From a virus, in the IMG/VR virus record IMGVR_UViG_3300029258_004337, positions 110,679-174,678 of that record: DNA of 64,000 nt, one strand, 5' to 3'. The notes under the pieces are model-generated. The model was given only the letters and a program-made list of their open reading frames with translations. It did not search any database and had not been told where the DNA came from. The position numbers and the translations under genes were made by a program. Of the stretch, positions 21,209 to 58,001 are shown piece after piece (the first letter of the stretch is position 1; every line of letters starts with the position of its first letter).

Positions 21209-22129
21209 ATGGGCAACGGTCCGACCTCTCGTCTCGCGGGCCGCCGCCCGATCCGCCCTCCTCAGCTGGGCGGCATCGGTGCCGGCGACGCCGACATGCA
21301 GCGCGCCTCTGGCTCCGCGAACCCGGGCGTCGATGCCGCGATGGGTGGGATGAGCCCTGACGCGCAGCGGCAGGAGCTCGAGCAGCAGCAGAAGGCCGCC
21401 CAGGAGATCGAGGACACGCGCGTGTTCCTCATCGAGCTCATCAAGAGCGGCCGGTGGAAGCTGCCCGGCGAGGCCTCCACTCCAGCGAAGCAGGTGGAGT
21501 CCCTCGAGGGCGCCGACGACCGCATGCTCACCTACTGGATGGGGGAGTACGAGGCGTGGACGGCGCAGCAGAACGCGGTGCAGGACGAGAAGGACGAGGA
21601 GGTGGTCCGCCGCATGTTCCGCCTCGGTCCGGAGCACCCCGAGTACAAGTCCGTGCTGGACCAGGAGCGGAGGGCCGCCACCGAGGAAGGCCTCGTCCCG
21701 ATGGACTTCGCCCAGCTCATGATGAAGAACTACGTCGAGCAGACCATCCCGATCCGCGACGGCTTCTCCATCGTCCTCCGCTCGATCACGACTCGGCAGG
21801 GGCAGTGGCTCGAGCGCCTGGGCCGTGAGCGGCTGTCCCAGCACTCGCACCTGGAGCAGCAGCACACCTTCGCCCTCTGGCAGGTGGCGGTGTCCCTGCA
21901 GGCCTACGTCTCCGGGGGCCACCGCTCCGACGTCGGGCACGACCTCGAGTCGTTCCAGGGCGAGAACGAGTTCAAGGCGTTCGTCGCCGCGCTCGACGCG
22001 CGCATGGACCTCCTCGCGAACAAGCCCGAGGAGCTCTCGCACGACTTCATCACCCAGTACGTCTGGTTCTGCGGGCGCGTCCGCTCGCTCATCACCGGCG
22101 ACACGGTGAAGCGCCTGGGAAACTCCTAG
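21209..22129 (+). CDS. Tail assembly chaperone-like protein (upstream, G-like frame)
   Basis: A 306-residue protein. The N-terminal 45 residues are disordered and Gly/Ala-rich, then come charged helices. The last third (IPIRDGFSIVLRSITTRQGQ and following) has the strand-and-turn pattern seen in tail assembly chaperones. The strongest evidence is the end: the last sense codons contain G-GGA-AAC directly before the stop, and a second frame continues in -1, as in the G/GT pair of lambda and other long-tailed phages. ATG 21209 has GGAATGGAG upstream. The tape measure it would serve is far away (51128), which is unusual. Confidence 0.65.
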   Translation: MGNGPTSRLAGRRPIRPPQLGGIGAGDADMQRASGSANPGVDAAMGGMSPDAQRQELEQQQKAAQEIEDTRVFLIELIKSGRWKLPGEASTPAKQVESLEGADDRMLTYWMGEYEAWTAQQNAVQDEKDEEVVRRMFRLGPEHPEYKSVLDQERRAATEEGLVPMDFAQLMMKNYVEQTIPIRDGFSIVLRSITTRQGQWLERLGRERLSQHSHLEQQHTFALWQVAVSLQAYVSGGHRSDVGHDLESFQGENEFKAFVAALDARMDLLANKPEELSHDFITQYVWFCGRVRSLITGDTVKRLGNS

Positions 22130-22176
22130 AGACGCCGCTGGGCTGGGCTCAGGCCGAGCTCCTGTACGAGCGTCTC
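22117..22176 (+). promoter_or_regulatory. Programmed -1 frameshift signal: slippery GGGAAAC plus stem-loop
   Basis: GGGAAAC (22117-22123) is in the correct X-XXY-YYZ phase of the upstream gene, two codons before its TAG. Five bases later GAGACGC (22129-22135) can pair with GCGTCTC (22170-22176), a perfect 7-base-pair stem. Heptamer, spacer and stem are arranged as in known -1 signals; lambda uses GGGAAAG. Confidence 0.7.
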
Positions 22177-22581
22177 CTCCATCGATCCCACATCACGCCG
22201 CTCCAGGAGCGGCTGTGCATGGTGGTGAAGCTGCGGCAGTCCGCCATCGAGGCCGCCGCGCTGCAGACGCTCGCCTACGCCGGGGCGACCAAGGACAACC
22301 ACAAGGCCGTCCTCAGCTCCCTCGACCGCTACATGAACCTCCGCTTCCCCGGAATGGGCGGGCCCTCCAACGACGAGCAGCGTCGGATGCGCCAGGCGCG
22401 CGAGATGCTGGCCCGCGAGGTCGAGAAGGTCTACCTCATCGAGCCGTACAAGGGCGACGGCAAGGACCTCGTGTCGAAGGCGATGGAGAGCAGCCACCCC
22501 GAATTCGCGGCTGCAGCTCGGCAGGCCGTGGCCATCGACGCCAGGCAGGCGATCGCGGACAGGAAGGCCGGGAAGCGGTGA
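22123..22581 (+). CDS. Frameshift extension of the tail assembly chaperone (T-like frame)
   Basis: After a -1 shift the frame continues for 152 codons (LLETPLGWAQAELLYERLLH...) to TGA at 22581, giving a fusion of about 457 residues with the upstream gene. The extension is helical and basic. A separate start at ATG 22219 with CAGGAG upstream would give a 120-residue protein, but the coding pattern continues upstream of that ATG back to the slippery site. A chaperone fusion that binds the tape measure is the expected role. Confidence 0.65.
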   Translation, partial: LLETPLGWAQAELLYERLLHRSHITPLQERLCMVVKLRQSAIEAAALQTLAYAGATKDNHKAVLSSLDRYMNLRFPGMGGPSNDEQRRMRQAREMLAREVEKVYLIEPYKGDGKDLVSKAMESSHPEFAAAARQAVAIDARQAIADRKAGKR

Positions 22582-44971: not shown

Positions 44972-45424
44972 GTGGTGTTCGTGTCGGTCTGCAGCAAGCT
45001 GCGCGCGCTCTCGGCGCACGTCATCTACATGTCGGTGCCGGACCTGAAGGACGGCAAGCCGGTCCTCCAGCTGAGGGGGTCAGCCCGGGGGCTCGACCTG
45101 TCGACGGCGGCGTGGGCCGGCAAGGCCAAGAAGGTGCTGCCGGTCACCGCCCTCCAGGTCACGAGCAAGACTCCCGCAGCGGCAGCGCGGTCGCTCGCCC
45201 TGAAGGAGAACGCCCTGGTGGACCAAGGCGGGCTGGCGGACCAGGCGTACACGCTGGTCCTGTTCCCCGAGTCCGTCGACCGAGGGGAGGACGGGTGGGT
45301 CCGCACCGTTCCGCTCGTCATCGTGAAGGGCGTGTTCACGGCACAGGACCGCGAGATCACGCCGGCGACCGGCAGGGTCACGAAGGCGGAGTTCCGTCCT
45401 CCGGCTGGTATGACGGGCACCTGA
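44972..45424 (+). CDS. Hypothetical protein, GTG start
   Basis: A 150-residue protein with a basic, hydrophobic first part (VVFVSVCSKLRALSAHVIYM) and a strand-rich second part. GTG 44972 has GGGAGG six bases upstream. It diverges from the minus operon 44922; its 3' end overlaps the minus gene at 45378 by 47 bases. Unknown function. Confidence 0.55.
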   Translation: MVFVSVCSKLRALSAHVIYMSVPDLKDGKPVLQLRGSARGLDLSTAAWAGKAKKVLPVTALQVTSKTPAAAARSLALKENALVDQGGLADQAYTLVLFPESVDRGEDGWVRTVPLVIVKGVFTAQDREITPATGRVTKAEFRPPAGMTGT

Positions 45425-45701
45425 AGACCTGCGTCTCGATGCTGGCACTGACGGCGTGGAACTCGCCCAGGTTCGACGCCGCACCGAAGTACGGGCACGA
45501 GATGGGCGAGTGCGCGCAGGACAGGCAGTTGGTGGTCGCCCAGTCCGTCCAGGACGCCAGGAGCTTCTGGACGCGCTCCCCGTTCGACAGGGCGTGGGCC
45601 AGCAGGGCGGCGGCATCGTCGCGAAGGCCCGCCGCAAGCAGCGCTTCGAGCACAAGGCGCTCGACTCCCTGCTGTGGTAGTACGTGGGTATCTCGTGGCA
45701 T
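45378..45701 (-). CDS. Hypothetical protein with Cys motif, divergent from the endolysin
   Basis: A 107-residue protein. The first 45 residues are helical (QGVERLVLEALLAAGLRDDA, then AAALLAHALSNG), then CLSCAHSPISCPYFG and, later, VFRCPSYQPE: four Cys in a ribbon-like spacing. ATG 45701 has a strong GAGGAG six bases upstream. Coding pattern is better than in overlapping plus frames. Unknown function. Confidence 0.6.
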   Translation of the reverse strand: MPRDTHVLPQQGVERLVLEALLAAGLRDDAAALLAHALSNGERVQKLLASWTDWATTNCLSCAHSPISCPYFGAASNLGEFHAVSASIETQVFRCPSYQPEDGTPPS

Positions 45702-45713
45702 CTGGAGCTCCTC
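45702..45713. promoter_or_regulatory. Twelve-base intergenic region with Shine-Dalgarno sequences on both strands
   Basis: CTGGAGCTCCTC, containing the palindrome GGAGCTCC. It is the whole space between ATG 45701 (minus) and GTG 45714 (plus). Each strand reads GGAG, six bases, start codon. Confidence 0.55.
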
Positions 45714-46640
45714 GTGAATGTCTTGGACAAGCCCTGCACGCACTTCCGGCGGAACAGGAACGGCAAGCCTTGGTTGATCGTCTTCCACTACGGCGCGACC
45801 TTCACGGCCTCGAAGACCTACAACGTCCTCCAGAGGCGCGGGGTCAGTGCGCACGGGACCATCGACCTCAACGGCGACCTCTGGCGTCACGTCGGGGACG
45901 AGCACACGGCCTGGCACGCGGGGGACGGGACCTTTGCTGGGTCGGTCGACATCAACGACGACTCCATCGGGTACGAGGTCGTCAACGTCGGCTACGGCCT
46001 GCCCATCCCCGAAGGCACCGACACCAAGGGGTGGTACGTCGACAAGTCGCAGAAGGGGAGGCCCCTCACCGCCTACCGGGTGGAGTCCTACAAGGACCGG
46101 AAGACCGGAGACAGGCGGAAGGTCTACGTCGGCATCTCGGAGCCGATGGGCCGCTACCCAGACCACCGGTCGAGTCACCGGAAGTACCTGTGGGCAGGGT
46201 ACACGCCGCACCAGCTCACCACGCTGATGCAGCTGCAGCGCGCCGACGTGGCCGCGCACCAGATCTTGCCCGAGTGCATCATCGGACACGAGCACTCGGC
46301 TCCTGGACGGAAGTCCGACCCTGGTCCGGCGTTCCAGCCGATGTGGGATGCGCTCGCCGCGGACTACAAGGCGTTCGCTCCCCACGTCAGCCCCGACCTC
46401 CTGGATATGGAGTTCGAGACCGAGCGGCGATGGAAGTGCGTCCAGTCCCACCTCAAGCGGATGGGCCTGTACCGCCTCCGCATCGACGGCGTCCTCGGTG
46501 ACGGGACGCGGAAGGGACTCGATGCTGCGCTCGAGAAGTACGCCTCGACGTACGGCCTGCCCAGCCTCGACACCACGGACCCCACGTGGGAGATCTGCAA
46601 CGCCCTCCGCAAGGTGCCGGGCTTCAAGCCTCCTCGGTAG
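45714..46640 (+). CDS. Endolysin: N-acetylmuramoyl-L-alanine amidase with peptidoglycan-binding domain
   Basis: A 308-residue protein. The Amidase_2 (AmpD/PGRP) domain spans about 15-215: zinc ligands His-25 (IVFHYG), His-192 (IIGHEH) and Asp-202 (GRKSDPG), with catalytic Glu-88 (IGYEVVN) and Lys-200 as in AmpD. Residues ~235-300 (RRWKCVQSHLKRMGLYRLRI, DGVLGDGTRKGL) match a PG_binding_1 domain. It cuts the amide bond between muramic acid and the stem peptide at lysis. No signal peptide, so a holin is needed. GTG 45714 is decided by CTGGAG six bases upstream. Confidence 0.9.
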   Translation: MNVLDKPCTHFRRNRNGKPWLIVFHYGATFTASKTYNVLQRRGVSAHGTIDLNGDLWRHVGDEHTAWHAGDGTFAGSVDINDDSIGYEVVNVGYGLPIPEGTDTKGWYVDKSQKGRPLTAYRVESYKDRKTGDRRKVYVGISEPMGRYPDHRSSHRKYLWAGYTPHQLTTLMQLQRADVAAHQILPECIIGHEHSAPGRKSDPGPAFQPMWDALAADYKAFAPHVSPDLLDMEFETERRWKCVQSHLKRMGLYRLRIDGVLGDGTRKGLDAALEKYASTYGLPSLDTTDPTWEICNALRKVPGFKPPR

Positions 46641-46962
46641 GCTCCTGCAGGACGATGAGCCGCCGGAGCTCGACCGACGCCTGGTGGTGCATGCGCCGCC
46701 TCTCGTGGAGACGGTCCAGAACCGACCGCAGCGCGTAGGCGAACGCCTCCTCGATCTCGCCCGGCGTCCTCATGAACGACTGCTGCCGTGGGGGGCCGCG
46801 CACGACGACGGTCGGCCCCCCGACGTCGATGGAGAGGATGCGCCTCTCCTCGAGCGCTGGCTTCTTCACGTACTCGACGTAGATGGTGTCCACGTCCCGC
46901 CCGACGGCGAGACCGGGGAGCGCCTCGTCGAGACGCTCCTTCAGGTCGTTGATCCAGCTCAC
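46624..46962 (-). CDS. Hypothetical protein, GTG start
   Basis: A 112-residue protein, SWINDLKERLDEALPGL at the start, strands in the middle, helical C-terminus. GAAGGAGG precedes GTG 46962, which overlaps the previous stop. Its end overlaps the endolysin by 17 bases. Unknown function. Confidence 0.55.
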   Translation of the reverse strand: MSWINDLKERLDEALPGLAVGRDVDTIYVEYVKKPALEERRILSIDVGGPTVVVRGPPRQQSFMRTPGEIEEAFAYALRSVLDRLHERRRMHHQASVELRRLIVLQEPTEEA

Positions 46963-48014
46963 GATGTCCCTCCTTCATGGTCGGGGAGGGCGGTGCCCTC
47001 GAAGTAGTCGATGAGGTTGTCCAGGGTGACGCCGCCTCGCTGTGCGGGGTTCCGCCCCATGCGCTTGGTCTCGGCCACGCGCGCTTGGACGCGCTTGTTG
47101 GCGTCCTCCTCCATGAGTTCCCACACGATCTCGGGGTTGAGGCCGGAGTGAGGGCACGTCGCCGTGCAGGTGCCGACGTGGTTCTTGTTGATGCCCGTCA
47201 GGTGCGTGCACGGCGGCTTGAGGATGCGCTTGTCCCGGTAGTCCTGCGTCTTGTCCGGGTCTTGCTCCCAGAGGCCGATGAGGCAGTTCACGCACACGTA
47301 CAGCCACCTGTTGTCGAGCAGCGCGCCTCGGACGCACCAGAGGGTCTCCTCGCAGACGCGGCAGGAGTGCGGCTTGCGGTCGATGACGGTCACCCGCGAG
47401 GGCTCCAGCAGCTCGTTGGACTCCGTGTACAGGTACGCCACGCCGTAGTCGTAGGTGGACGAGACGATGGGGTGGAGGCAGTACAGCCAGTCCCGCCCGT
47501 TCTTGGACAGCACCCACATGAGCGTGCACCACAGCACCCGCTCGATGACCCAGCCGGGTGGCGTGAAGGACTGGGAAGACGCCTGCTCGCGCGTCATCCC
47601 CTTCTCCCACATGTAGAAGCCCGACTCCCGGACGTAGCCGAGGGCCTCCTCCTGCTCGCGCGCGGAGAGGCCCGGGTCGTTGATGCGCGCGTCGAACTGG
47701 TTGCGTTCCGGCGCGTCCCGGAACAGCTCGATGTCGTCGGGGCTCAGCTCGGACTGGTCGTACTCGAAGACGAACGAGTAGGGCTCGTCCGTCTGGTAGA
47801 TGCCGGTGTTGCGCAAGATCCAGACCGCGTTCAGCTGGACCCACTCCAGGGTGGAGACGATGGTGATGGGGACGACGTGGTTCGGGAACTCCTCCACGTT
47901 GATGTCCCACACCGCGGCCATGAGGTCCTTCACGAAGTGCCAGGTACCAGGGTCGGGCCAGCGAGGATCTCGTCCGTCAGCGTACTGTGGGTCGGTCGGC
48001 TCAATCGAAAACAT
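46959..48014 (-). CDS. Hypothetical protein with several Cys/His clusters
   Basis: A 351-residue protein. The first 210 residues are Trp/Tyr-rich and globular. The later part has CRVCEETLWC, CVNCLIG, CTHL and CTATCPH, a set of at least eight Cys that could bind two zinc ions. No family recognised. GGAGAAACCC precedes ATG 48014; under copy 8 of the CGCATAAG element. Confidence 0.6.
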   Translation of the reverse strand: MFSIEPTDPQYADGRDPRWPDPGTWHFVKDLMAAVWDINVEEFPNHVVPITIVSTLEWVQLNAVWILRNTGIYQTDEPYSFVFEYDQSELSPDDIELFRDAPERNQFDARINDPGLSAREQEEALGYVRESGFYMWEKGMTREQASSQSFTPPGWVIERVLWCTLMWVLSKNGRDWLYCLHPIVSSTYDYGVAYLYTESNELLEPSRVTVIDRKPHSCRVCEETLWCVRGALLDNRWLYVCVNCLIGLWEQDPDKTQDYRDKRILKPPCTHLTGINKNHVGTCTATCPHSGLNPEIVWELMEEDANKRVQARVAETKRMGRNPAQRGGVTLDNLIDYFEGTALPDHEGGTS

Positions 48015-48047
48015 GGGTTTCTCCAGGATTCTGTCGGAGGTTCTCCG

Positions 48048-48064
48048 CTCCAACTCCTTATGCG
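48048..48064 (-). promoter_or_regulatory. Conserved CGCATAAG element, copy 8
   Basis: Plus-strand CTCCAACTCCTTATGCG, one mismatch to the main form. It lies 34 bases before ATG 48014. Confidence 0.7.
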
Positions 48065-48081
48065 ACTGAACTTTCCAGCCT

Positions 48082-48117
48082 TACCAAACCTACCAACGGC
48101 TTGACAGCCTCGGTAGG
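48082..48117. promoter_or_regulatory. Candidate operator of the divergent regulatory region
   Basis: CCTACC (48089-48094) and GGTAGG (48112-48117) form an inverted repeat spanning the -35 box TTGACA. The left half is part of the 14-base sequence shared with 22887-22900. A small helix-turn-helix gene follows directly, so autoregulation is plausible. Confidence 0.4.
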
Positions 48118-48130
48118 AGTGGGGCATACA
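48101..48130 (+). promoter_or_regulatory. Sigma70-like promoter for the virion module regulator
   Basis: TTGACA, 18 bases, CATACA. It is the best sigma70 match in the window. The ATG at 48137 is only 6 bases after the -10 box, so the transcript would be leaderless or nearly so. Confidence 0.55.
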
Positions 48131-48136
48131 GGCTCC

Positions 48137-48364
48137 ATGGCCGACCACCTTTCCGTCAAAGACGTGAGCAGCATCCTCGAGCTCAGCCCGACCACCGTCC
48201 GCCGCTTGGCCGACGCGGGTGAGCTGGGGCCGGTGATGCGCACGCCCGGCGGCAGAGGTGCCGGTCACCGTCGGTTCGATGCGGAGGCCGTGGAGGCCTA
48301 CCGCAAGAGCCGGGTCGACCCACCCACGAGCTCGGTTCCCGCGCTCGGCATCCAGTTCACGTAG
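48137..48364 (+). CDS. MerR/excisionase-type helix-turn-helix regulator
   Basis: A 75-residue protein: LSVKDVSSILELSPTTVRRL (5-24) is the helix-turn-helix, then GELGPVMRTPGG and GHRRFDAEAVEAYRKSR, the wing pattern H-R-R-F/Y of MerR-like and phage excisionase/Cox-like DNA-binding proteins. There is no ligand domain. It has no Shine-Dalgarno sequence, in line with a leaderless start. It may control its own promoter and the related site at 22887. Confidence 0.7.
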   Translation: MADHLSVKDVSSILELSPTTVRRLADAGELGPVMRTPGGRGAGHRRFDAEAVEAYRKSRVDPPTSSVPALGIQFT

Positions 48365-48374
48365 GGAGAGCGCA

Positions 48375-49418
48375 ATGGCGGAGAAGAAGTTCGGAGGTCT
48401 GCCCCGGCAGGCCGGAGTCTCGCTGATCGGCGGAGGCAACCCTCTGGTCCTCGACGGTAGCCGGGGGCGGCGGGGCCCGACTCCTGCTCCGCCGAAGAAG
48501 TCCAAGCGCCTGCTTCGGTCGGATCAGCGCAAGGTCCAGTACGAGATGCTCATGAGCCAGGACCGGCCGGAGGAGGCGCGCGCGCTCATGCGGGGAGCCC
48601 ACCCGGCCGCCCGGCGCAGCCGCCGCACGGACGATGCGCAGCACCTGGTCGACACCGGGCAGGCTCGCTCGGTCGACACTGGACAGCCCATCGCTCCCGG
48701 CTCGCCTGTGCCCCGCGTCGTCGCAGGTCCCCTGAGTCATCGCCAGGGCCCGACCCCCGACGCCTTCGTCTTCGTCTCGTCCGACGGCGCGTCCTACTCG
48801 CTGCCGAAGAGCATGGGCAACCCGAAGGACAAGGAGTCCATGTGGCGTGCTGGCATCACCAACTCGGTGAACGTCCTCATGCTCGCCCTCCGCGAGATCG
48901 GCGTCGGTGGGGACCCCATCGCAGTCTTCGACCAGTGCGGCGTCGCCCTCAAGGACATGCACGGCCAGTCCCTGTTCCCCATCCCCCCGGAGCTCCGCGG
49001 CGTCCGTCCGCAGTACGAGTACGTCGCCGAGCCGGAGCCCGAGGAGGAGGCGTTCGGGGACCAGCTCGACCACGGCGTCACGGCCGACTTCGGCGCTCCC
49101 GTCGAGGAGGTCCCGTTCGGTGAGGAGTTCTCTGATGTTGGCGACGCCGAGGCGGGCTTCGCCGCCGGCTTCGACAACTACGACGACGAGCACCTGGGAC
49201 CCTACGCCGACACCGTCGCTCCCGAGGTCCACCCCGTGGACCAGCTCAAGGCCACGCTTGCGGACATCGATCCCGCGCAGTTCGAGGCGGCCCTGGCCTC
49301 TCTCGGCCCGGAGCGGCTTCGGCAGCTCGGCTTCAACGTCGGCGACGACAGCGCCGACGTGGATGACGGCCAGCCCATCGACCCCGCGGGCTACGGCGAT
49401 CCGGAGGTCGAGGACTGA
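48375..49418 (+). CDS. Hypothetical protein, possible structural protein
   Basis: A 347-residue protein. The N-terminal 110 residues are basic and disordered with a small repeat (LVDTGQARSVDTGQPIAPGS). Residues 125-205 look globular (DAFVFVSSDGASYSLPKSMG...). The C-terminal 120 residues are very acidic, ending in DDSADVDDGQPIDPAGYGDP. GGGAG precedes ATG 48375. It opens the series of coupled genes leading to the tape measure. No family recognised. Confidence 0.55.
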   Translation: MAEKKFGGLPRQAGVSLIGGGNPLVLDGSRGRRGPTPAPPKKSKRLLRSDQRKVQYEMLMSQDRPEEARALMRGAHPAARRSRRTDDAQHLVDTGQARSVDTGQPIAPGSPVPRVVAGPLSHRQGPTPDAFVFVSSDGASYSLPKSMGNPKDKESMWRAGITNSVNVLMLALREIGVGGDPIAVFDQCGVALKDMHGQSLFPIPPELRGVRPQYEYVAEPEPEEEAFGDQLDHGVTADFGAPVEEVPFGEEFSDVGDAEAGFAAGFDNYDDEHLGPYADTVAPEVHPVDQLKATLADIDPAQFEAALASLGPERLRQLGFNVGDDSADVDDGQPIDPAGYGDPEVED

Positions 49419-49663
49419 TGGACGTCCAGCTCACCATCGCCGGCGGCCCCGTAGGGGGTAGCGTTCTCCTGGACCTCCGTCCGGTGGAGGCGTGGTGGGC
49501 TCGGCTCCAGGAGCGTGTGTCTGCGCTTCGTCTGCACGACCAGGGCGGACCTCGCCCTGGTGTCGCGCGCGCCAGGTGCGGGTGTCCCTGCGGCGCTGGT
49601 CCGGAGCGAGTGCTCACGGACGGCGTCGCGCGGTACTGCACGAGGTGCGGCGAGACCCACTGA
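49418..49663 (+). CDS. Hypothetical protein with four-Cys zinc site
   Basis: An 81-residue protein with CGCPC (residues ~54-58) and CTRCGETH at the C-terminus, probably one zinc ribbon. TGATG junctions on both sides. Confidence 0.55.
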   Translation: MDVQLTIAGGPVGGSVLLDLRPVEAWWARLQERVSALRLHDQGGPRPGVARARCGCPCGAGPERVLTDGVARYCTRCGETH

Positions 49664-50073
49664 TGCGGAGCACCGGGCGCGGGCGGGCGTCTTGGAGGCG
49701 TCAGTGGGACGTGCAGACGATAGCGCTTCACCCACGGCACGGATTCCGCCTCCTCGAGGCGAAGGCCGAGTACGTGAGGAGGAGCCGCAAGCTCGTTCTC
49801 ACGGTCTCGCTGCGCAAGCCGCGCGACGACTGCTTCGGCCCCGTCACGCAGCACAAGCGCCTCATCCGGTGGCCTGATGGCCGAGACATCCCTCTCGTCC
49901 GGAAGGCGGTCGCTCACGAGCTCGCCTTGATGCTGCGCCTCCTGGAGCAGCGGAAGTGGCCCGAGCCAGACGTGTACCTGGCACAGTGCAACCGCACCGG
50001 CATGGACATCGAGGACTTCAGCGAGAAGTTCTGCACGCTCTGCACCTTCCCCACATGCACGCTACGTGAGTAG
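49663..50073 (+). CDS. Hypothetical protein with C-terminal Cys cluster
   Basis: A 136-residue basic protein. Middle strands and helix (KLVLTVSLRKPRDDCF), then CNRT and CTLCTFPTC at the end, likely metal-binding. ATG 49663 overlaps the previous stop. Unknown function. Confidence 0.55.
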   Translation: MRSTGRGRASWRRQWDVQTIALHPRHGFRLLEAKAEYVRRSRKLVLTVSLRKPRDDCFGPVTQHKRLIRWPDGRDIPLVRKAVAHELALMLRLLEQRKWPEPDVYLAQCNRTGMDIEDFSEKFCTLCTFPTCTLRE

Positions 50074-50087
50074 CGGAGGATCTCCTG

Positions 50088-50690
50088 ATGGCGTTCGGCA
50101 TCACCACCTACAAGTCCAAGCTCATGGACGAGATCGACAAGGCCGCCGCGGACTCGCTGGCTCCCCTGTACACCCTCGACCTCATGATCGGCCGAGGGCC
50201 CGAGACGGGCAACCCAGCCGCAGGCATCTGGGTCTACCAAACCAAGGCCGGCGGAGACGAGGACCTCCTCTCATTCGATGATGCGCGCATGCGCGCCTAC
50301 TACGACCGCATGCGCGAGTCCGGCGCGGTGGCAGAGGAGCAGCAGGGCGACCCCATCCGCATCTCGACGAACGGGAACTACCTGGCCAACTCCGAGTCGG
50401 CGCTGCGGCACCTGCTGACCAAGTACAACTACAACTGCGAGGTCCGGGTCAAGGTCCCCTTGCTCCGCATCCAGTGGGTCATCCCCAAGGACAAGGTCGT
50501 CCAGATCCTGAACGACGGCACCTTCGCCGCGAAGATCAAGGAGATGCACGAGGCGCTGCACGAGGGCTTCAAGTGGGATCCCTGGCTGGGCGGAGCTCGC
50601 AAGGGCAAGGTCGGGGCCGCGGAGCACAAGAAGGCCTTCGGGAGTCAGCTGGGCAAGCAGTACCGCTTCAACCGCAAGGACAAGCCGTGA
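50088..50690 (+). CDS. Hypothetical protein of the tail region
   Basis: A 200-residue protein, MAFGITTYKSKLMDEIDKAA at the start, alpha/beta to residue 160, with a basic C-terminus. GCGGAGG precedes ATG 50088. Position just before the tape measure suggests a tail role, but no family is recognised. Confidence 0.55.
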   Translation: MAFGITTYKSKLMDEIDKAAADSLAPLYTLDLMIGRGPETGNPAAGIWVYQTKAGGDEDLLSFDDARMRAYYDRMRESGAVAEEQQGDPIRISTNGNYLANSESALRHLLTKYNYNCEVRVKVPLLRIQWVIPKDKVVQILNDGTFAAKIKEMHEALHEGFKWDPWLGGARKGKVGAAEHKKAFGSQLGKQYRFNRKDKP

Positions 50691-50962
50691 ACGTCCGAGA
50701 GGCCCAGTACGCCATCGAGACCCAGATCCACCGTCTGGCGGTGATCGAGGACCTGCTGGCCCACCTCGACGGCAAACCCATCCCCTCTCCCGTCGGCGAT
50801 GGGATGGTGCCGGACGAGCACACGCGGTACGTTCGGTCGCTCCTCGAGAAGGAGCAGCGGGCCTGCGAGGCCGAAGTACGCGACCTGGAGGAGCTGAATG
50901 TCGGAGAGCCCAAGCAAGGGAAGCTCGTTGTCCTCGACGGACATCGCAGGCCTGACCCCTGA
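50687..50962 (+). CDS. Small helical protein, GTG start
   Basis: A 91-residue helical protein (VNVREAQYAIETQIHRLAVI...). GTG 50687 overlaps the upstream stop, and its last 65 bases overlap the next gene. Unknown function. Confidence 0.5.
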   Translation: MNVREAQYAIETQIHRLAVIEDLLAHLDGKPIPSPVGDGMVPDEHTRYVRSLLEKEQRACEAEVRDLEELNVGEPKQGKLVVLDGHRRPDP

Positions 50963-51110
50963 GCAGATCCTCAAGGATGTCATCGACCCGCACCTCGACG
51001 CGTACAGCGCCTTCCTGCGGACCCAGGACGGGGAAGGTCTCGCTCCCTTCGAGCGTGAGATGCTGCGTGGGTTCCTCTACTGGGACCTGAAGGGACCGCC
51101 ATCCTCTTGA
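50898..51110 (+). CDS. Small protein upstream of the tape measure
   Basis: A 70-residue protein (MSESPSKGSSLSSTDIAGLT...). Strong GGAGG six bases before ATG 50898 supports it in spite of the 65-base overlap with the previous gene. Unknown function. Confidence 0.55.
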   Translation: MSESPSKGSSLSSTDIAGLTPEQILKDVIDPHLDAYSAFLRTQDGEGLAPFEREMLRGFLYWDLKGPPSS

Positions 51111-51127
51111 CGTGGTAGTAGTCGTCC

Positions 51128-54100
51128 ATGAACAACGGCGGCTACGCGACTCCAGGATCTACCATGCCCGCGCCGGGCATGGGCTTCAGCACGCCTGGCT
51201 TCTTCCAGGCGGGACTTGGCTCGGCCGGCTTCTTCGCCCCGAACAACCAGCGGTCTGCGGACCAGAGGTCGTCGCAGGCCCAGCTCGGCGCGCTAGGCGG
51301 CGGTGCCGCAGCCAACTTCTTGACCAGCACAGCCCCGGGCGCCATCGGGACGGGCGTCATGCTGGGCGGTGCTGCGGCACCCCTGTTCCGCGGGATCGGC
51401 ACCTCGATGGGCCGCCCCGGCATGGTCGGGTTCGCGCGAGCCCTCGATGCGATCGACCCCTTCACGTACGTCATGAAGGCGGGCGGCGCGGGGTTCCGGG
51501 CAGGCTCGTGGGCTGCAGGGAGGCAGGTCGGGGCCGGGATGCTAAGCGCGGGCGCGCGCGGCGTCATGGGTGGCTTGGTGGGCGGCGCCATGGGCGTCAC
51601 CGGCGTCGGCGCGATCATGGGGGCGGGGGCCTTCGCCGCCAGCTCGTATCTGTCCAACATGCGGGACGGTCAGCAGGCGTACCAGGACACGAAGATGCTG
51701 CTGGCCCAGCGCAGCGGCTCGATGTTCGGACGTCAGGTGGACCCGACCAACGGTATGGCTGTGGGAATGCAGCAGCAGTTCCGGTCCGCGGCACGTAGCC
51801 TCGGGACCGACAGCGGGACCGTGCGCGAGATCACCCGCTACCTGGACGACCAGGGCTACTTCAAGTCGGTCTCGGGCACGAAGGAGTTCAAGGAGAAGTT
51901 CGACAAGGCGCTGTCGACCATCAAGACCATCGCGAAGGAGATGCAGACGTCCATCGAGGACGCGACGCAGACCTTCAGCCAGATCCGCCAGCAGGGCTTC
52001 TACCAGGCCGCCGACGTGGGCGCCCAGGCCCTCAAGCAGGGCGCGTTGGCGGCGGCGACCGGACGCGATCCCTCCCAGGTGGCGGCGATGGGGGCCTACG
52101 GTGCCCAGACCGCACGACGCTACGGCATGCGCGGCCGCTTCGGCGCCGAGTTCATGCAGAACGTCCAGGCATCTGTCGACCTCGGCATGCGGAACGGCAG
52201 CATCTCGGAAGAGGCCGTCATGGAGGCCGGAGGCCCCGAGGCAGTGGCAGCACGCCTCGGGCAGGCCCAGATGCGCTTCCTCAAGGGCGCGCGCGGCCGG
52301 ATGATGATGGCCAACGCGATGGGGTCGGGCTCGGAGATGGACGTCGGACGCCTGACGAGCGTCGTCGGAGGCAACTCCAGCCTAGAGCAGCTCGTGACCC
52401 GGGCCGTCAACCGCGGGCTCGGAACGCTGCAGGCCACGGGGGGACGCGAGGCCCAAGAGAACTTCATGCAGTACGCCGGCATGGCGATGGTGAACTCGGC
52501 GCGCGCAGAGCGCGGACAGCTCGGCATGTCGACGGACCGGAAGGGCCTCATCCGCGGCCTGATGCACCAGGGCCTCGGCCGAGAGGAGGCGGGCCTCCTG
52601 CTCGACCAGAGCCTGAACATGGGCAACGTGCTGCGCGAGCAGCGCAACGAGTCCATGCGCATGCAGCAGGAAGCGGAGTTCGACCGGGTCGCCAAGCAGT
52701 ACAGCATCATCGCCAGGACGAAGGGCGCGTGGAAGGACAACATCTCGGACCCCGCCCGGTACATGGGTGCCCGGGTCGGCGAAGAGATGGACCAGCAGGC
52801 AGCCTCCTGGGGATCCTGGTGGAGCGGAAGGAACGAGGTCAGCATGGGCGGCACGTCGCAGGGCTACCTGCGACGCGGTGCGATGTTCGAGGGCCCTCGA
52901 GGTGCCGGGACGGCTCGCAGCCGTGCTCTCTTCGCGGCCCCCAGCATGAACGAGAGGTTCCTGGACGAGTACAGCGACTACGCCGTGACAGGCAACCAGG
53001 CGATGGTCGACTCGGTGATGGGCGGAGGCTCCTACTTCTCGCAGAACTCGGACCTGATGTCGGTCCAGGGACGCGTCTACGACAAGTCGGGCAGGGAGTA
53101 CTCCCAGGTCTCGGGCAACCAGTTCGCCCCGAAGAACGTCGCCGACCTCGACTTCCAGGCGCGCTTCGGGCGCAACAGCCGGGACGTGTCCGGTCAGGCG
53201 GCGGCAGGGCTGCGGAACCTGTCCACGACGCACCGCCTGGACGACGTGGTGGCCCGGAGCCGCACCACCGACATGAGCATGTCCGGACCGTTCGGCCTCG
53301 GGACGATGTTCGGGTTCGGAGGGCCCAGCGCGCGGGACACCGCGACGTGGGACTACGTGAACGCGCTCGAGGACGACCCTCTGAAGGCCGGGCTGCCCAG
53401 CACGCCCGAGGCCTACTCCCGCCTCCCCGGAGAGGAGAAGGCGCAGTACGAGGGGGCGATCTCGCGCGCGCTGCGCGGAACTGCACACGGCAAGGAGTAC
53501 GACAAGCTCGGGGTCGGGAGGAAGACCGCCTACCGGACGGACTCTGCTGCGGCGAGGAAGGCCTACGGCGAGGAGTTCGACAAGCTCGCCTCCGCCTGGG
53601 GCAGCCCTGTCGCGGGGAATTTCTACGGGAACACCGCTGACGAGCTCAAGCTCGCCACCGAGAAGAGCGGCGTGCAGAGGGAAGCCTTCGGGAAGGCGAT
53701 GGAAGTCGCGCTCTCCGAGAACCTGGACCAGGACGCGATGGAGAAGGCGCTGAAGGGCCTCGGGGCCTCCGGGATGACAGGGCAGGCCCTGACCCAGGCC
53801 CAGCAGCTGGTGGGGCACTACTCGTCCCTCACCGGGGATGCCCGCACGAAGGCCAGGGCCGGCGCCGCACGCCTGTTCGATGTCGGCGCGTCGCTCGAGT
53901 ACCAGCGGCTCACCGACCAGAGCAAGTCCATCACCAAGAACGCCTACCAGAGGTGGGTGGAGGGCAGCGGCGACCCGATGATCGACCGCGAGTTCGGCGC
54001 CGCCGGCGACGCGGTGCGGGCACTCGGCAAGGCATCGAGCGGGGGCACGCGCGAGGAGTACGTCGCGGCCTGGGAGGGAGTGCTCAAGCAGGTAGCCGCC

Positions 54101-54529
54101 GGCGGGATCAGCGCGGAGGAGAAGAAGAGCCTCTTCGACATCTCGGGCGGTCAGCTGGGGACTCTCGGCATGGCCAGCGACATCAACAGCGTCATCGACG
54201 AGAAGACGCGTGCAGCGAAGCTCAAGGAGTTCGGGTACAGCGATCAGGACATCGCGGCGGCGATGGGAAAGAGCGCAGACCAGGTGGTCGGCGACCTCAT
54301 GGCACGCGGCGACTTCTCGCCCGCCATGTACGACAACGGCACGGGGACGGGGAAGGGCGGCCGAACCACCGTGGAGGGCATGGAGTCCGACGTCTGGAAG
54401 CGCCAGACCGAGTTCGTGGTTGCCGTCGACGCCTTCCTCACCGCGTTCAAGTCGACCGGAGTGGGCAAGGAGATGCAGATGGACACCTACGGCGACGAGG
54501 TCGTCGGAGCGAACACGGTGCTCAAGTAG
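51128..54529 (+). CDS. Tail tape measure-like protein
   Basis: A 1133-residue protein, the longest in the window. It has a Gly/Ser/Met-rich N-terminus, a run of Gly/Ala hydrophobic segments (about 75-175, including GGLVGGAMGVTGVGAIMGAG), then long charged helices to the end. This composition (hydrophobic spans plus helices) is typical of tape measure proteins, which set tail length and help deliver DNA through the host membrane. No lysozyme or peptidase motif was seen in it. ATG 51128 has no good Shine-Dalgarno sequence. Tail and baseplate genes follow. Confidence 0.65.
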   Translation: MNNGGYATPGSTMPAPGMGFSTPGFFQAGLGSAGFFAPNNQRSADQRSSQAQLGALGGGAAANFLTSTAPGAIGTGVMLGGAAAPLFRGIGTSMGRPGMVGFARALDAIDPFTYVMKAGGAGFRAGSWAAGRQVGAGMLSAGARGVMGGLVGGAMGVTGVGAIMGAGAFAASSYLSNMRDGQQAYQDTKMLLAQRSGSMFGRQVDPTNGMAVGMQQQFRSAARSLGTDSGTVREITRYLDDQGYFKSVSGTKEFKEKFDKALSTIKTIAKEMQTSIEDATQTFSQIRQQGFYQAADVGAQALKQGALAAATGRDPSQVAAMGAYGAQTARRYGMRGRFGAEFMQNVQASVDLGMRNGSISEEAVMEAGGPEAVAARLGQAQMRFLKGARGRMMMANAMGSGSEMDVGRLTSVVGGNSSLEQLVTRAVNRGLGTLQATGGREAQENFMQYAGMAMVNSARAERGQLGMSTDRKGLIRGLMHQGLGREEAGLLLDQSLNMGNVLREQRNESMRMQQEAEFDRVAKQYSIIARTKGAWKDNISDPARYMGARVGEEMDQQAASWGSWWSGRNEVSMGGTSQGYLRRGAMFEGPRGAGTARSRALFAAPSMNERFLDEYSDYAVTGNQAMVDSVMGGGSYFSQNSDLMSVQGRVYDKSGREYSQVSGNQFAPKNVADLDFQARFGRNSRDVSGQAAAGLRNLSTTHRLDDVVARSRTTDMSMSGPFGLGTMFGFGGPSARDTATWDYVNALEDDPLKAGLPSTPEAYSRLPGEEKAQYEGAISRALRGTAHGKEYDKLGVGRKTAYRTDSAAARKAYGEEFDKLASAWGSPVAGNFYGNTADELKLATEKSGVQREAFGKAMEVALSENLDQDAMEKALKGLGASGMTGQALTQAQQLVGHYSSLTGDARTKARAGAARLFDVGASLEYQRLTDQSKSITKNAYQRWVEGSGDPMIDREFGAAGDAVRALGKASSGGTREEYVAAWEGVLKQVAAGGISAEEKKSLFDISGGQLGTLGMASDINSVIDEKTRAAKLKEFGYSDQDIAAAMGKSADQVVGDLMARGDFSPAMYDNGTGTGKGGRTTVEGMESDVWKRQTEFVVAVDAFLTAFKSTGVGKEMQMDTYGDEVVGANTVLK

Positions 54530-54544: not shown

Positions 54545-54748
54545 ATGGCAGAGTCCAACAAGATCAGCGATCGGGGCGTCGTCAACGAGGAGGGCATCCT
54601 CCGGGTGGCGGAGTACGACCGCGTGGGCGAGCTGCGCCTCATGGACCACCTGGTCCGCATCGAGGCTGCGAACGTCTGGTTCGGCCGAGACATCGCCCCC
54701 GACCCGGTCCCCACTGACCTCCGTCGGACCGTCGTGGAGCCCAAGTGA
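54545..54748 (+). CDS. Small tail-module protein
   Basis: A 67-residue protein (MAESNKISDRGVVNEEGILR...). GAGGAGG precedes ATG 54545 and the stop overlaps the next GTG. Its place between the tape measure and baseplate proteins suggests a virion role. Not recognised. Confidence 0.55.
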   Translation: MAESNKISDRGVVNEEGILRVAEYDRVGELRLMDHLVRIEAANVWFGRDIAPDPVPTDLRRTVVEPK

Positions 54749-55659
54749 GCACCATCCTGTACCGCACTGACCCGTTCGAGCAGAGCCTTCCGGAGGTCGT
54801 CAGCCTCTTCAAGAAGAAGGACTCGCGTGGCGTGCGCCGTCCGCTGTACGGCTACGTGCCGAAGGCCGACAGGTTCGCCTCCCTGTCCCTGCGCCAGTCC
54901 GGTGCGGAGGGGAACCTCGTCCCCGTCTCCATGCCAGATCAGGCCGGACCTGCGGTCGAAGGGAAGGGGTGGTCCAACCACAACCACAACTTCCTCCTCA
55001 CCCAGGTGAGCCACGTCGAGTCCGAGAAGATGCAGATCGTCGAGACCTTCGGCGAGGACTTCGTGTTCTTCTTCGGTGAGCGCCCGCTGGTCCTGCAGGT
55101 TCAGGGCCTCCTGATGAACACCGCGGACTTCTCCTGGAAGCAGGAGTGGCTCTCGAACTACCGGAACTACCTGCGCGGCACCCGGTGCGTTCAGAACCGC
55201 ACGAGGGTCTACCTCAGCGTCGATGACCAGCTGTACTCCGGGTACGTCTTCGGCACGAGCGTGGCGGACGACTCCAAGCTCCCTCACGTCTGCCAGTTCA
55301 GCTTCAAGATGCTGGTCTTCAGCCACGTGGACGTCGGAAACGCTGTCGTCCGCTCCGTCGAGAACACGAGGCTCGTGGGCGATTCCTTGTACGTGGACTA
55401 CATCGAGGCCCCTCTCGAGGTCGAGAAGCTGTACTTCATCGACCCGATCACCGGGCAGTCGAGTCCCTTCGACCCCCAGCGGCTCACCGGCACCCCCTTC
55501 GCCTTGACCGCCTCCGACGCCATGCAGCGCGTCCAGGCGTGGTTCGAGGAGCTCGGCGAGGAGCGCCTCATGCGGGAGTCTCTCCTGTACCGGCGGCAGG
55601 CGTTCTACGGAGGAAGCGCGCGCGTCCCGGGCGGCGCCCTCCTGCGAAGTGACCAGTGA
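54745..55659 (+). CDS. Tail/baseplate structural protein
   Basis: A 304-residue protein. VLQVQGLLMNTADFSWKQEW, then NYRNYLRGTRCVQNRTRVYL and SGYVFGTSVADDSKLPHVCQFSFKM read like distal tail or baseplate proteins (a jelly-roll strand followed by the loop F-x-W-x..Y-x-x-Y-L-R-G-T). Such proteins sit at the tail tip. GTG 54745 overlaps the previous stop. Confidence 0.55.
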   Translation: MSTILYRTDPFEQSLPEVVSLFKKKDSRGVRRPLYGYVPKADRFASLSLRQSGAEGNLVPVSMPDQAGPAVEGKGWSNHNHNFLLTQVSHVESEKMQIVETFGEDFVFFFGERPLVLQVQGLLMNTADFSWKQEWLSNYRNYLRGTRCVQNRTRVYLSVDDQLYSGYVFGTSVADDSKLPHVCQFSFKMLVFSHVDVGNAVVRSVENTRLVGDSLYVDYIEAPLEVEKLYFIDPITGQSSPFDPQRLTGTPFALTASDAMQRVQAWFEELGEERLMRESLLYRRQAFYGGSARVPGGALLRSDQ

Positions 55660-58001
55660 GCTCTGCCGCCTACCTGAACCTGCGCGTCTTCCTCGAGGGC
55701 GTCGAGGTGCCGGCCATCGGTGCCCGGATCGTCGCCACCGCGGGCGTCCCCATCGCCTGCGAGGTGCGCCTGGTCGCGACGGACCCCATCTTCGACCTGA
55801 AGCCGCGCACCGCTGTCGCCGTCTGCGTCTTCGATGACGACAGGAGGGGGCACTCTTACGAGGGAGGCACCCAGAAGGAGCGCGCGAACCTCACGCTGGC
55901 GGACCTCCGCAACTACAAGTGCGGGTTCCTGGGCGAGCTCGCCGGCGTCAACTTCCAGAAGCAGCCCGGTCAGCGGGACGTGACCCTCGTGTTCCTGGCC
56001 CCGGACAACTACTGGGACTTCATCAAGCAGCACTACGTCAACTTCCGCAACGGCGGCATCGAGCTCATCGAGCTGGCCTTCCGAGGCGTCTCGCCCGACA
56101 AGGCCAAGTCCTTCGACGTCGCCGGCAAGGACCTGCACTCCAACCTGTTCAACTGGCTCTCGAAGAGCGAGAACGCGGAGGGCAACGACAACCTCTACCT
56201 GGGCGTCCATCGGACGCTCCGGGAGATGTGGTTCGCCGCCAACGACTGGTACGGCGGAGCCTTCAACCGTTGGCGCTACGGCGACCTGGTCGTGGGCGTG
56301 CCGCAGGACGAGACCGCGGCCAAGCTGTTCAAGCTCGACTTCTTCCAGAAGTACCTGTCCAACCGGGTCGGCGGAGGCGGCGGAGCCTACACGCTGGCCC
56401 AGATGATGCGCATGATGCTGGGCACGGTGTTCCACGACACCGTTGGGATCCCGTTCCCCTACCTGGACAAGGAGGGCCGTGCCCGGGGCTACGACCCGGA
56501 CGACGGCTCCGCGCTGTCGCGTCGTCTCATCAAGCGCGACGACGGGTGGGCCGACGCCACCCTCAACTACACGGCGATCGTGCCGCACGCGCCCTTCATG
56601 GCGCCTCCGGTCTGCAACATCGTCTTCCCGAACCAGTACAACATCGTCTCGCACAACCGGGACTTCCTGAACGAGCCCACCCGGATGTTCGTCCGCACCA
56701 GCTTGCTGCTGAACGGGGCACCCAACAAGTGGCTCACCGAGCGCTTCTACGCCCCGGACTTCGACTCCCTCGACGGCATGACCGTCAACGCGAAGAACGG
56801 GTCCTTCCTCGAGCGCATGGCGACGACCGTACTCCCTCACGAGCGGTGGACCGGGCTCAACCCGGTGGAGCACTGGCAGGACGACCTCAGCGCCTACGTC
56901 GCGAAGGGCCCTCGCCGCGACTACCTGTCGAAGCTGGCGGACTACAGCTTCTGGCTGGGCCGCTTCGCTCGCCGCACCATGAGCTTCACGGGGCCGCTGA
57001 ACCTCAACCTCGTGCCGGGCTTCCCGGCCGTCCTGATGTCTGACGTCTACTCGCCCCTGCACATGGCCAAGCACATCTTCGGGCACATGCACACCGTGGT
57101 GCACATGATCGACCAGCGCGGGGGCATCACGCAGGGGACCATCACCCACGCCAGGCACCACACGGAGGTCCTCGACTTCGACTCCGATGCTTCCACGCTG
57201 TCGGACGACGGGACGGGGGCGGACTACCGATCGCTGTCGACCCTGGTCGACAGAGGCACCGACGGGTTCCTGGACGACCGGTACGACGTCAAGCGCGTAG
57301 GTGCCGAGGTCTACGACCTGCTGCTCGGGTGCGAGAGCCTGTACGACCTCGGGGAGCGCCTTGCGGACCAGGTCGACACCGAGGCCGCGGAGGCCAACGT
57401 TCCTCTCGTCGTGGGAGGCGACAAGTTCTGGAAGGACATCGACGGCGACAAGCACCCGCTTCGCCGCGCCATCTGGGCTCTGGAGATCGCCTGGCGTCTC
57501 CAGAACGCCGAGGGCGGGGACCTGCGCAGCATGGCCCAGGAGGTCACCTGGAGGCCCAAGGCATCCCTCGTGGAGGTCCTGGGTCACCCGGACGCCACCG
57601 ACTCCGCCAACGACACCGACCTCGACCTGACCGACGTCTACGACGAGGAGGGGATCCCGGCGGAAGGGTTCCTGTCCTCTGCCTTCGACCCCGGCTCCTT
57701 CGCGGCCAAGCCCGCGGCCGACGGCGGCGGGGACGGGTACAAGGGCGTCGACTTCACCACCCGGACGAGGAAGACGGTGAAGGTCCGGCGCACCCTCCCC
57801 GCCGGCGAGACCATCGTGGACGCGAACGGGAAGACCATCGGCCCCTCGGACCGGGACCTGCAGTACGACGCCCAGTCCACCACGGAGACTGCGGTCGAGC
57901 ACGAGGTCGATGCCAGTTACAATCTGCAGGAGAGCGGGCTGATCCGGCGTCAGTGCGTGCAGGACTACGTGAAGAGCCTGGAGCTCCGGGGGTTGGGATG
58001 A
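55656..58001 (+). CDS. Large baseplate/tail hub-like protein
   Basis: A 781-residue protein. The N-terminus (LNLRVFLEGVEVPAIGARIV, then ATAGVPIACEVRLV) and a segment FTGPLNLNLVPGFPAVLMSD (about 450-469) resemble baseplate hub proteins of contractile or long tails, where a strand-rich domain binds the tape measure end. The rest is unrecognised. GTG 55656 overlaps the preceding stop. Confidence 0.55.
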   Translation: MSSAAYLNLRVFLEGVEVPAIGARIVATAGVPIACEVRLVATDPIFDLKPRTAVAVCVFDDDRRGHSYEGGTQKERANLTLADLRNYKCGFLGELAGVNFQKQPGQRDVTLVFLAPDNYWDFIKQHYVNFRNGGIELIELAFRGVSPDKAKSFDVAGKDLHSNLFNWLSKSENAEGNDNLYLGVHRTLREMWFAANDWYGGAFNRWRYGDLVVGVPQDETAAKLFKLDFFQKYLSNRVGGGGGAYTLAQMMRMMLGTVFHDTVGIPFPYLDKEGRARGYDPDDGSALSRRLIKRDDGWADATLNYTAIVPHAPFMAPPVCNIVFPNQYNIVSHNRDFLNEPTRMFVRTSLLLNGAPNKWLTERFYAPDFDSLDGMTVNAKNGSFLERMATTVLPHERWTGLNPVEHWQDDLSAYVAKGPRRDYLSKLADYSFWLGRFARRTMSFTGPLNLNLVPGFPAVLMSDVYSPLHMAKHIFGHMHTVVHMIDQRGGITQGTITHARHHTEVLDFDSDASTLSDDGTGADYRSLSTLVDRGTDGFLDDRYDVKRVGAEVYDLLLGCESLYDLGERLADQVDTEAAEANVPLVVGGDKFWKDIDGDKHPLRRAIWALEIAWRLQNAEGGDLRSMAQEVTWRPKASLVEVLGHPDATDSANDTDLDLTDVYDEEGIPAEGFLSSAFDPGSFAAKPAADGGGDGYKGVDFTTRTRKTVKVRRTLPAGETIVDANGKTIGPSDRDLQYDAQSTTETAVEHEVDASYNLQESGLIRRQCVQDYVKSLELRGLG

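Follow-up and report, generated by a model that had tools for sequence, protein, structure and literature searches.

In phages, frameshifts of the tail assembly chaperone genes are commonly looked for in the region immediately upstream of the tape measure gene, and the slippery heptamer of phage λ is GGGAAAG. The g-t frameshift is reported to be widely conserved in long-tailed phages with the exception of T4, and the same source gives G_GGA_AAC as the slip site of halovirus HCTV-1 (PMC5009743). In the published description of phage Adele, the chaperone gene lies directly upstream of the tape measure gene, with GTTTTT as the signal (PMC12846349), and in the deposited record of Bacillus phage G, gp181 and the two-piece gp182, which immediately precede the tape measure gene, carry the label tail assembly chaperone. 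As judged by titles and abstract openings, none of the papers listed in literature searches reports chaperone genes lying apart from the tape measure gene. The locus studied here is, with a probability that we estimate at about 0.9, a λ G/GT-type tail assembly chaperone pair in which a slip on G_GGA_AAC yields a 457-aa GT product.

The window, i.e., the whole stretch of DNA analysed, comprises 64,000 nucleotides and corresponds to bases 110679-174678 of the 174,678-base IMG/VR virus record IMGVR_UViG_3300029258_004337 (G000). On its plus strand, an open reading frame beginning at ATG 21209 and ending at 22129 encodes a 306-aa product (P0001, hereafter G), a putative G-like tail assembly chaperone whose gene ends in CTG GGA AAC TCC TAG; GGGAAAC (22117-22123, plus strand) thus stands in the X_XXY_YYZ phase, and the zero-frame stop TAG (22127-22129) lies one codon past it. 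The T-like -1 frame (P0002, 22117-22581, plus strand, hereafter T) would be read after the slip from codon CTC at 22123 to 22578, with TGA as stop at 22579-22581, and its 152 codons would form the C-terminal part of a putative fusion of 457 residues (305+152 by translation). The first-pass annotation had placed GGGAAAC in the right phase at the end of a 306-codon gene, with a -1 frame open for 152 codons and a fusion of about 457 residues, and both the sequence and the translations bear this out.

The heptamer at this position exceeds chance. Among the 239 called genes of the record (54,439 codons), in-phase X_XXY_YYZ sites with A or T as Y occur three times, and only that at 22117-22123 falls within 5 codons of a stop; the chance expectation for such a heptamer followed by a -1 frame open for at least 140 codons is 0.023 events in the whole record. 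By codon preference, the -1 frame scores clearly positive past 22219 (log-odds 49.3); ahead of that position its score is close to neutral (2.5), the other two frames giving -21.7 and -28.1. G matches a single gene in the record. The pair is flanked by minus-strand genes on both sides and hence probably needs its own transcript; a sigma-70-like promoter was sought for it and not found, which says little because the phage has its own polymerase.

Relatives of the pair were identified by protein similarity, with the heptamer lying outside the peptide patterns used in the searches that found the first three contigs. A search with the -1 frame protein led to a single relative, present on the contigs G001 and G002 (loci L002/L003), which are identical over 600 compared bases from 6001 on and were counted as one lineage, and a two-row profile yielded a third lineage, G003 (L011). 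Both G002 and G003 retain GGGAAAC at the end of the upstream frame, their G proteins being 29-35% identical to that of the window; for the T proteins, identity is 32-36% along the full alignment and reaches 39-43% within the best segment. Given the encoded amino acids, the third-position chance of G_GGA_AAC is 0.049, 0.035 and 0.035 in these three lineages (68%, 42% and 52% GC), calculated as products of codon fractions, the last of which were drawn from 7 genes. Further, a tail tube profile built from the window phage, G002 and G003 brought four additional contigs, G004-G007. The G profile matches G005 (E 1.3e-17) and G007 (E 1.8e-10), as does the T profile (E 7.3e-8 and 3.2e-6, respectively), and neither profile matched the tube-bearing contig fragments G004 and G006. 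The G frame ends in ATA AAA AAT GGA TAG in G005 and in ATA AAA AAA TCA TAG in G007, i.e., with the heptamers A_AAA_AAT and A_AAA_AAA. Elsewhere, tblastn with the three G proteins and the window T against 50,697 phage records gave no match, nor did a single G protein against the viral contigs, from which the two- and three-row G and T profiles returned only G001-G003; the T and tube profiles gave no confirmed relative among the genome contigs.

Cultured relatives were recognized through other genes of the record, whose sheath and tube match those of Salmonella phage Arash and Vibrio phages D69, D181 and D148, with further matches to Arash in terminase, portal, capsid, baseplate, sigma factor and RNA polymerase. 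When the Arash and D69 records were searched in the ordinary way, neither the profiles of G and T nor the tape-measure protein gave a match; the negatives of that search are weak, since the link emerged only by direct profile comparison. The profile of G against that of Arash and D69 gave P 1e-5, and among 210 proteins predicted from the parts of Arash and D69 compared, the best two for the G profile were Arash gp2 and D69_0002 (P 3e-4 each; third 0.024). The 3' ends of both genes, GCA AAT TTC TAA and TTA AAT TTC TAA, carry A_AAT_TTC, and the -1 frames that follow span 122 codons in Arash, where they hold gp3, and 117 codons in D69, where they hold 0003. For T, the profile comparison with Arash/D69 gave no match (P 0.34) and the true T frames of these phages fell outside the eight best of the 210; the likeness of T to them consists of the alignment of a short N-terminal stretch. 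Arash gp2/gp3 (L025:1622-2538) and D69 0002/0003 (L028:1536-2395), deposited as separate hypothetical genes, resemble frameshifted chaperone pairs. Two other candidates were rejected: VPHD69_0271, neither part of which is similar, and Arash gp242/gp243, which are both listed as virion proteins (PMC10585845) and show no profile similarity. VPHD69_0271 (L022:6616-7898), which is unrelated to G and has a gene homologue in Arash, has G_GGA_AAG ahead of its stop and about 160 open codons in the -1 frame.

In all seven lineages where the pair was found, the window included, an X_XXY_YYZ heptamer stands at most one codon from the same stop (GGGAAAC in 3, AAATTTC in 2, AAAAAAT in 1 and AAAAAAA in 1), and the -1 frames span 108-154 codons counted from the heptamer. 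The seven-row alignment has K2 and P7 as invariant residues, and the five uncultured lineages have a (G/S)WA(Q/R)A stretch in common. The comparison of homologues for GGGAAAC had been proposed in the first-pass annotation as a check, with lack of conservation as the outcome that would count against a frameshift; that outcome was not found, the other four of the seven lineages carrying a different slippery heptamer. Conservation of the heptamer in relatives found by protein similarity indicates, at the level of sequence comparison, that it is under selection.

The identity of the first product was addressed by family and structure searches. G had no family match in PHROG, Pfam or NCBIfam, and T gave only rows below the curated cut-off (Pfam Stork_head, NCBIfam small_w_EgtBD). 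An AlphaFold model of G from a three-row alignment reached a middling pLDDT of 66, and a Foldseek search of this model against the PDB gave no row at E 0.001 or better, the first row being the HK97 tail assembly chaperone 2ob9 (E 0.15). Among 283 PDB chains compared with VIA-align, the top row was YqbN 3klu (Z 6.9, rmsd 3.7, 92 aligned), which we take to be a prophage tail chaperone relative, followed by 2ob9 (Z 6.3, rmsd 3.7, 91 aligned) and 5ir0, of unknown function (Z 5.9, rmsd 4.9, 98 aligned), the next row scoring 4.6; a Z below 8 in this method can mean only a common arrangement and is no proof alone. In BFVD, the sole row under E 0.001 was an uncharacterized phage protein; phage G gp181 (E 0.014) and gp182 (E 0.028) and the tail assembly chaperones of Rhodococcus phage Finch and Brevibacterium phage Cantare (E 0.07 and 0.10) also appeared, the rows named chaperone standing among unnamed proteins and a baseplate hub subunit. 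On the weak fold match together with the remote homology to Arash gp2, we regard G as a probable tail assembly chaperone.

A real frameshift could also serve some other virion or assembly protein rather than a tail chaperone, a reading that agrees with the lack of a family match for G, with fold scores below 8, and with the G_GGA_AAG end and open -1 frame of the unrelated D69 gene described above. We consider it very unlikely: the pair comes after the tube in G002 and G003 and ahead of a tape-measure-like gene in Arash and D69, the three best VIA-align rows include YqbN and the HK97 tail chaperone, and the main text of the Arash paper, with a virion proteome table that begins at Gp004, makes no mention of Gp002 or Gp003 (PMC10585845). 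The words "frameshift", "chaperone" and "tape measure" are likewise absent from that main text (PMC10585845).

The tape measure gene was located by homology and synteny. The window gene at 51164-54529 (plus strand) encodes a 1121-aa putative tape measure protein (P0007), for which PHROG and NCBIfam gave no match and Pfam a sub-threshold row only, and a direct search of the viral contigs (including G001-G003) and phages gave no relative. On G004, a gene at the contig end is 39% identical to it (E 8.6e-62) and is followed by 70-aa and 301-aa genes, the window counterparts being a 67-aa gene (54545-54748, plus strand), with a 69-aa gene in the same place in Arash and D69, and a 304-aa gene (54745-55659, plus strand), a homologue of the Arash virion protein gp6. 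The profile of the G000 and G004 proteins matched that of Arash gp4 and D69_0004 (P 4.4e-9) and also a 1256-aa G005 protein (P 1e-4), whereas the controls against Arash and D69, ten other large proteins of the record and three shuffles, gave P 0.12 or worse. With the single sequence, D69_0004 and Arash gp4 ranked first among the 210 Arash/D69 proteins (P 0.014 and 0.020; third 0.024), though by a slight margin, and profiles were needed to make the link clear. Arash gp4, of 1097 aa, is reported as second by spectra in virions (1952), with a tail of 140 nm (PMC10585845), and the start of its gene overlaps the end of gp3 by 11 bases. From these comparisons, Arash gp4 and the homologous window gene are likely tape measure genes. 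An in-phase GGGAAAG also occurs in this window gene, 85 codons from the end and with 148 codons open in the -1 frame; it is probably there by chance. The 200-aa and 91-aa genes at 50088-50962, just before it, were considered as a second pair and rejected, since the 200-aa product has no similarity to G and its gene lacks the sought heptamer at its end.

In the record, the tube (81243-81992), the pair (131887-133259) and the tape measure gene (161842-165207) all lie on the plus strand. The tube gene is outside the window, 49.9 kb upstream of the pair, and the distance from the -1 stop at 22581 to ATG 51164 is 28.6 kb; the tube - pair - tape measure order on one strand is thus present, and adjacency to the tape measure gene is not. 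In G005, the tube (from 26608), the pair (47319-48370) and the tape-measure-like gene (54970-58740) are separated by gaps of 19.9 and 6.6 kb, and in Arash and D69 the pair immediately precedes the tape measure gene; taken as circular, these records place it about 13 and 23 kb past the tube. Judged where all three genes were seen, the order is kept in G000, G005 and, if circular, Arash and D69, with widely varying spacing. In G002 the pair lies 641 bases past the tube, followed by 10.4 kb without a called gene above 521 aa; in G003 it lies 962 bases past the tube, with 3.8 kb to the contig end, where the called genes are mostly on the minus strand; and in G007 the tube is near 87.5 kb on the plus strand and the pair at 160.8-159.6 kb on the minus strand, about 71 kb apart.

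The first-pass annotation had put the likely tape measure 28.5 kb from the pair, which agrees with the 28.6 kb measured to the gene homologous to Arash gp4. It had also described the genes between as of replication type, which is correct in part: among those tested, one matched PHROG 724 ("exonuclease recombination-associated"), others matched dNMP kinase, Thy1, an AAA_30/UvrD_C_2 helicase and an amidase, and four had no Pfam match. Its split tail module is more aptly described as a loss of adjacency, the customary order and strand of tube, pair and tape measure being retained and other genes filling the intervals of 50 kb and 29 kb.

The separation of the pair from the tail genes might in principle be an assembly artefact of a metagenomic contig, given a single IMG/VR record without reads and the position of the pair beside the tube in G002 and G003. 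This we hold to be less probable still than a product other than a chaperone: the independent contig G005 likewise shows the three genes apart, G007 has its pair far from the tube on the opposite strand, and on G002 no gene above 521 aa was called in the 10.4 kb past the pair. Further, neither G nor T matched in the 11.8 kb after the tube of G004 or elsewhere on that contig, in a search that also missed the Arash homologue.

Conservation within the -1 frame bears on where its translation begins. Among the three closest lineages, identity over residues 1-34 is 21/34 (window/G002), 24/34 (window/G003) and 20/34 (G002/G003), and over residues 35-110 it is 22/73, 22/73 and 33/73, respectively; the best-conserved part is therefore the first 34 residues, upstream of ATG 22219. 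This ATG opens an internal 120-aa frame (22219-22581, plus strand), a possible re-start with AGGAG at 22205-22209 nine nt upstream, and as codon 35 it is the first ATG, GTG or TTG after the preceding stop. The first such codon is an ATG at codon 34 in G002, and the -1 frame has a TTG at codon 16 and its first ATG at 49 in G003, and a TTG at codon 15 and an ATG at 23 in G005; as the first ATG differs in the latter two, the re-start is not conserved. In G002, G003, G005 and D69 the -1 frame is closed 2-6 codons upstream of the heptamer, which confines the crossing to about the heptamer itself. In G007 it stays open farther upstream and includes an ATG at codon -37 relative to the heptamer, and in Arash and D69 an ATG stands at codons 12 and 10, making a separate start possible in those three. 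That no frameshift occurs and that the second frame is a separate 120-aa protein made by re-initiation at ATG 22219 is the least probable of the alternatives, for the AGGAG, the ATG of G002 at the neighbouring codon, the ATGs of G007, Arash and D69 and the annotation of the latter two pairs as two genes are outweighed by the high conservation of the 34 residues ahead of the window ATG, by the inconstancy of the start, and by the retention of a slippery heptamer in all seven lineages despite changed letters. Use of the downstream frame only from ATG 22219, named in the first-pass annotation as evidence against a frameshift, is accordingly at odds with the conservation of its upstream part.

The possible stimulator is less clear. 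A hairpin at 22129-22176 (plus strand) has a 7-bp stem, GAGACGC (22129-22135) with GCGTCTC (22170-22176), 5 nt from the heptamer, and this stem is present in the predicted minimum-energy fold of 75 nt; however, it is an unproven candidate, with a z of -1.33 for the 75 nt and 19 of 200 shuffles folding at least as well. The fold of G003 contains another stem, of 9 bp (75 nt, z -2.45, 4/200 shuffles as good), and that of G002 a 6-bp one (z -0.93 for 50 nt and -0.10 for 75 nt); the GAGACGC/GCGTCTC pairing is lost in the consensus fold of all three. The stem and spacer reported in the first-pass annotation thus exist, although they are neither above chance nor conserved, and as a conserved stimulator this stem was rejected, its pairing being absent in the two closest relatives.

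By analogy with λ, the preferred reading of the locus as a G/GT-type pair would work as follows. Most ribosomes would end at TAG 22127 and release the 306-aa G, and a small fraction would slip back one base on G_GGA_AAC and produce the 457-aa GT. G would coat the tape measure protein, the T part of GT would recruit the tail tube subunit, and the G:GT ratio set by the slip rate would control tail assembly. The λ arrangement recognized at first reading is supported by the heptamers in seven lineages, by the weak chaperone fold and by the remote Arash/D69 homologues before a tape-measure-like gene. The pair stands alone on the plus strand among minus-strand genes and far from the tube and tape measure genes, which implies that its expression is arranged apart from theirs.

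The locus is of a known kind, a λ-type tail chaperone frameshift, and what is unusual is its distance from the tail genes and the turnover of the heptamer across the group, i.e., scarcely described large phages, Arash-like and with their own multisubunit RNA polymerase. Across this group, the pair lies beside the tape measure gene in Arash and D69, beside the tube in G002 and G003, between the two at a distance in G005 and G000, and on the other strand in G007. We see about even odds that the chaperone pair is a self-contained cassette, moved or pushed apart from the tail genes, with the slip itself rather than the operon fixing the G:GT ratio; the latter would follow from a -1 shift that is kept while the heptamer is exchanged. 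A search confined to the vicinity of the tape measure gene would miss the window pair, and in the Arash and D69 records the likely pairs are entered as separate genes. Across the seven lineages a slip signal persists while its heptamer and the gene position vary, which makes them a natural series for asking what is selected: the letters, the slip rate or the coupling to the tape measure. In addition, the profiles supply a first functional label for genes of a poorly annotated group.

Other features of the record were observed along the way. A 2067-aa gene at L006:5031-11234 (record 45031-51234) fuses RNA polymerase beta (residues 233-999) and beta' (1093-2041); Arash gp206 matches residues 1-1479 of the fusion and a second Arash gene, gp216, the remainder, both being reported in virions (PMC10585845), and the window phage likely has a fused, possibly packaged RNA polymerase. 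A sigma-70-like factor, below NCBIfam cut-offs, is encoded at 62946-63731 in the tail/baseplate cluster and is homologous to Arash gp10, which is listed in the virion table (PMC10585845). The motif GCA(T/C)AAG, mostly as CGCA(T/C)AAG and sometimes followed by GACTT, occurs 37 times in the record, with 17 intergenic copies, 13 of which stand 24-54 nt before a same-strand gene start (12 of the 13 on the minus strand; record 131540, 125978, 112759 and ten other places), and is a probable phage-specific promoter. The motif (E/D)(L/M)EK(I/L/V)A is found in 17 of the 239 called proteins of the record, 11 times in the first 40 residues, and in 8 of 61 proteins of G002, 7 times in the first 40 residues, both being raw counts; it is perhaps a packaging or cleavage signal.

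Compared with λ, the window G is without a sequence family match and the pair is not beside the tape measure gene, and G is presumably about twice as long as λ gpG. Both loci have overlapping frames, a G_GGA_AA heptamer close to the end of G for the -1 slip and a longer minor product, slip and product being predicted in our case, as described for λ (PMC5009743), and the window heptamer differs in ending in C, as reported for halovirus HCTV-1 (PMC5009743). Phage Adele resembles the group in a conserved -1 frameshift that, according to its description, public annotations show as separate genes, and differs in its GTTTTT signal and in its gene lying directly upstream of the tape measure gene (PMC12846349). 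In Bacillus phage G, gp181/gp182 share the two-piece, joined tail chaperone gene after the sheath and a weak fold resemblance, but stand directly before the tape measure gene and give products of 115 and 367 aa. The closest systems are Arash gp2/gp3 and D69 0002/0003, with a remote G homologue, an X_XXY_YYZ heptamer right before the stop and a -1 frame, in phages that belong to the same group as the record by sheath and tube (both) and by capsid, portal, terminase and RNA polymerase (Arash); these pairs differ in their AAATTTC heptamer, in their position directly before the tape-measure-like gene and in having been deposited without a frameshift.
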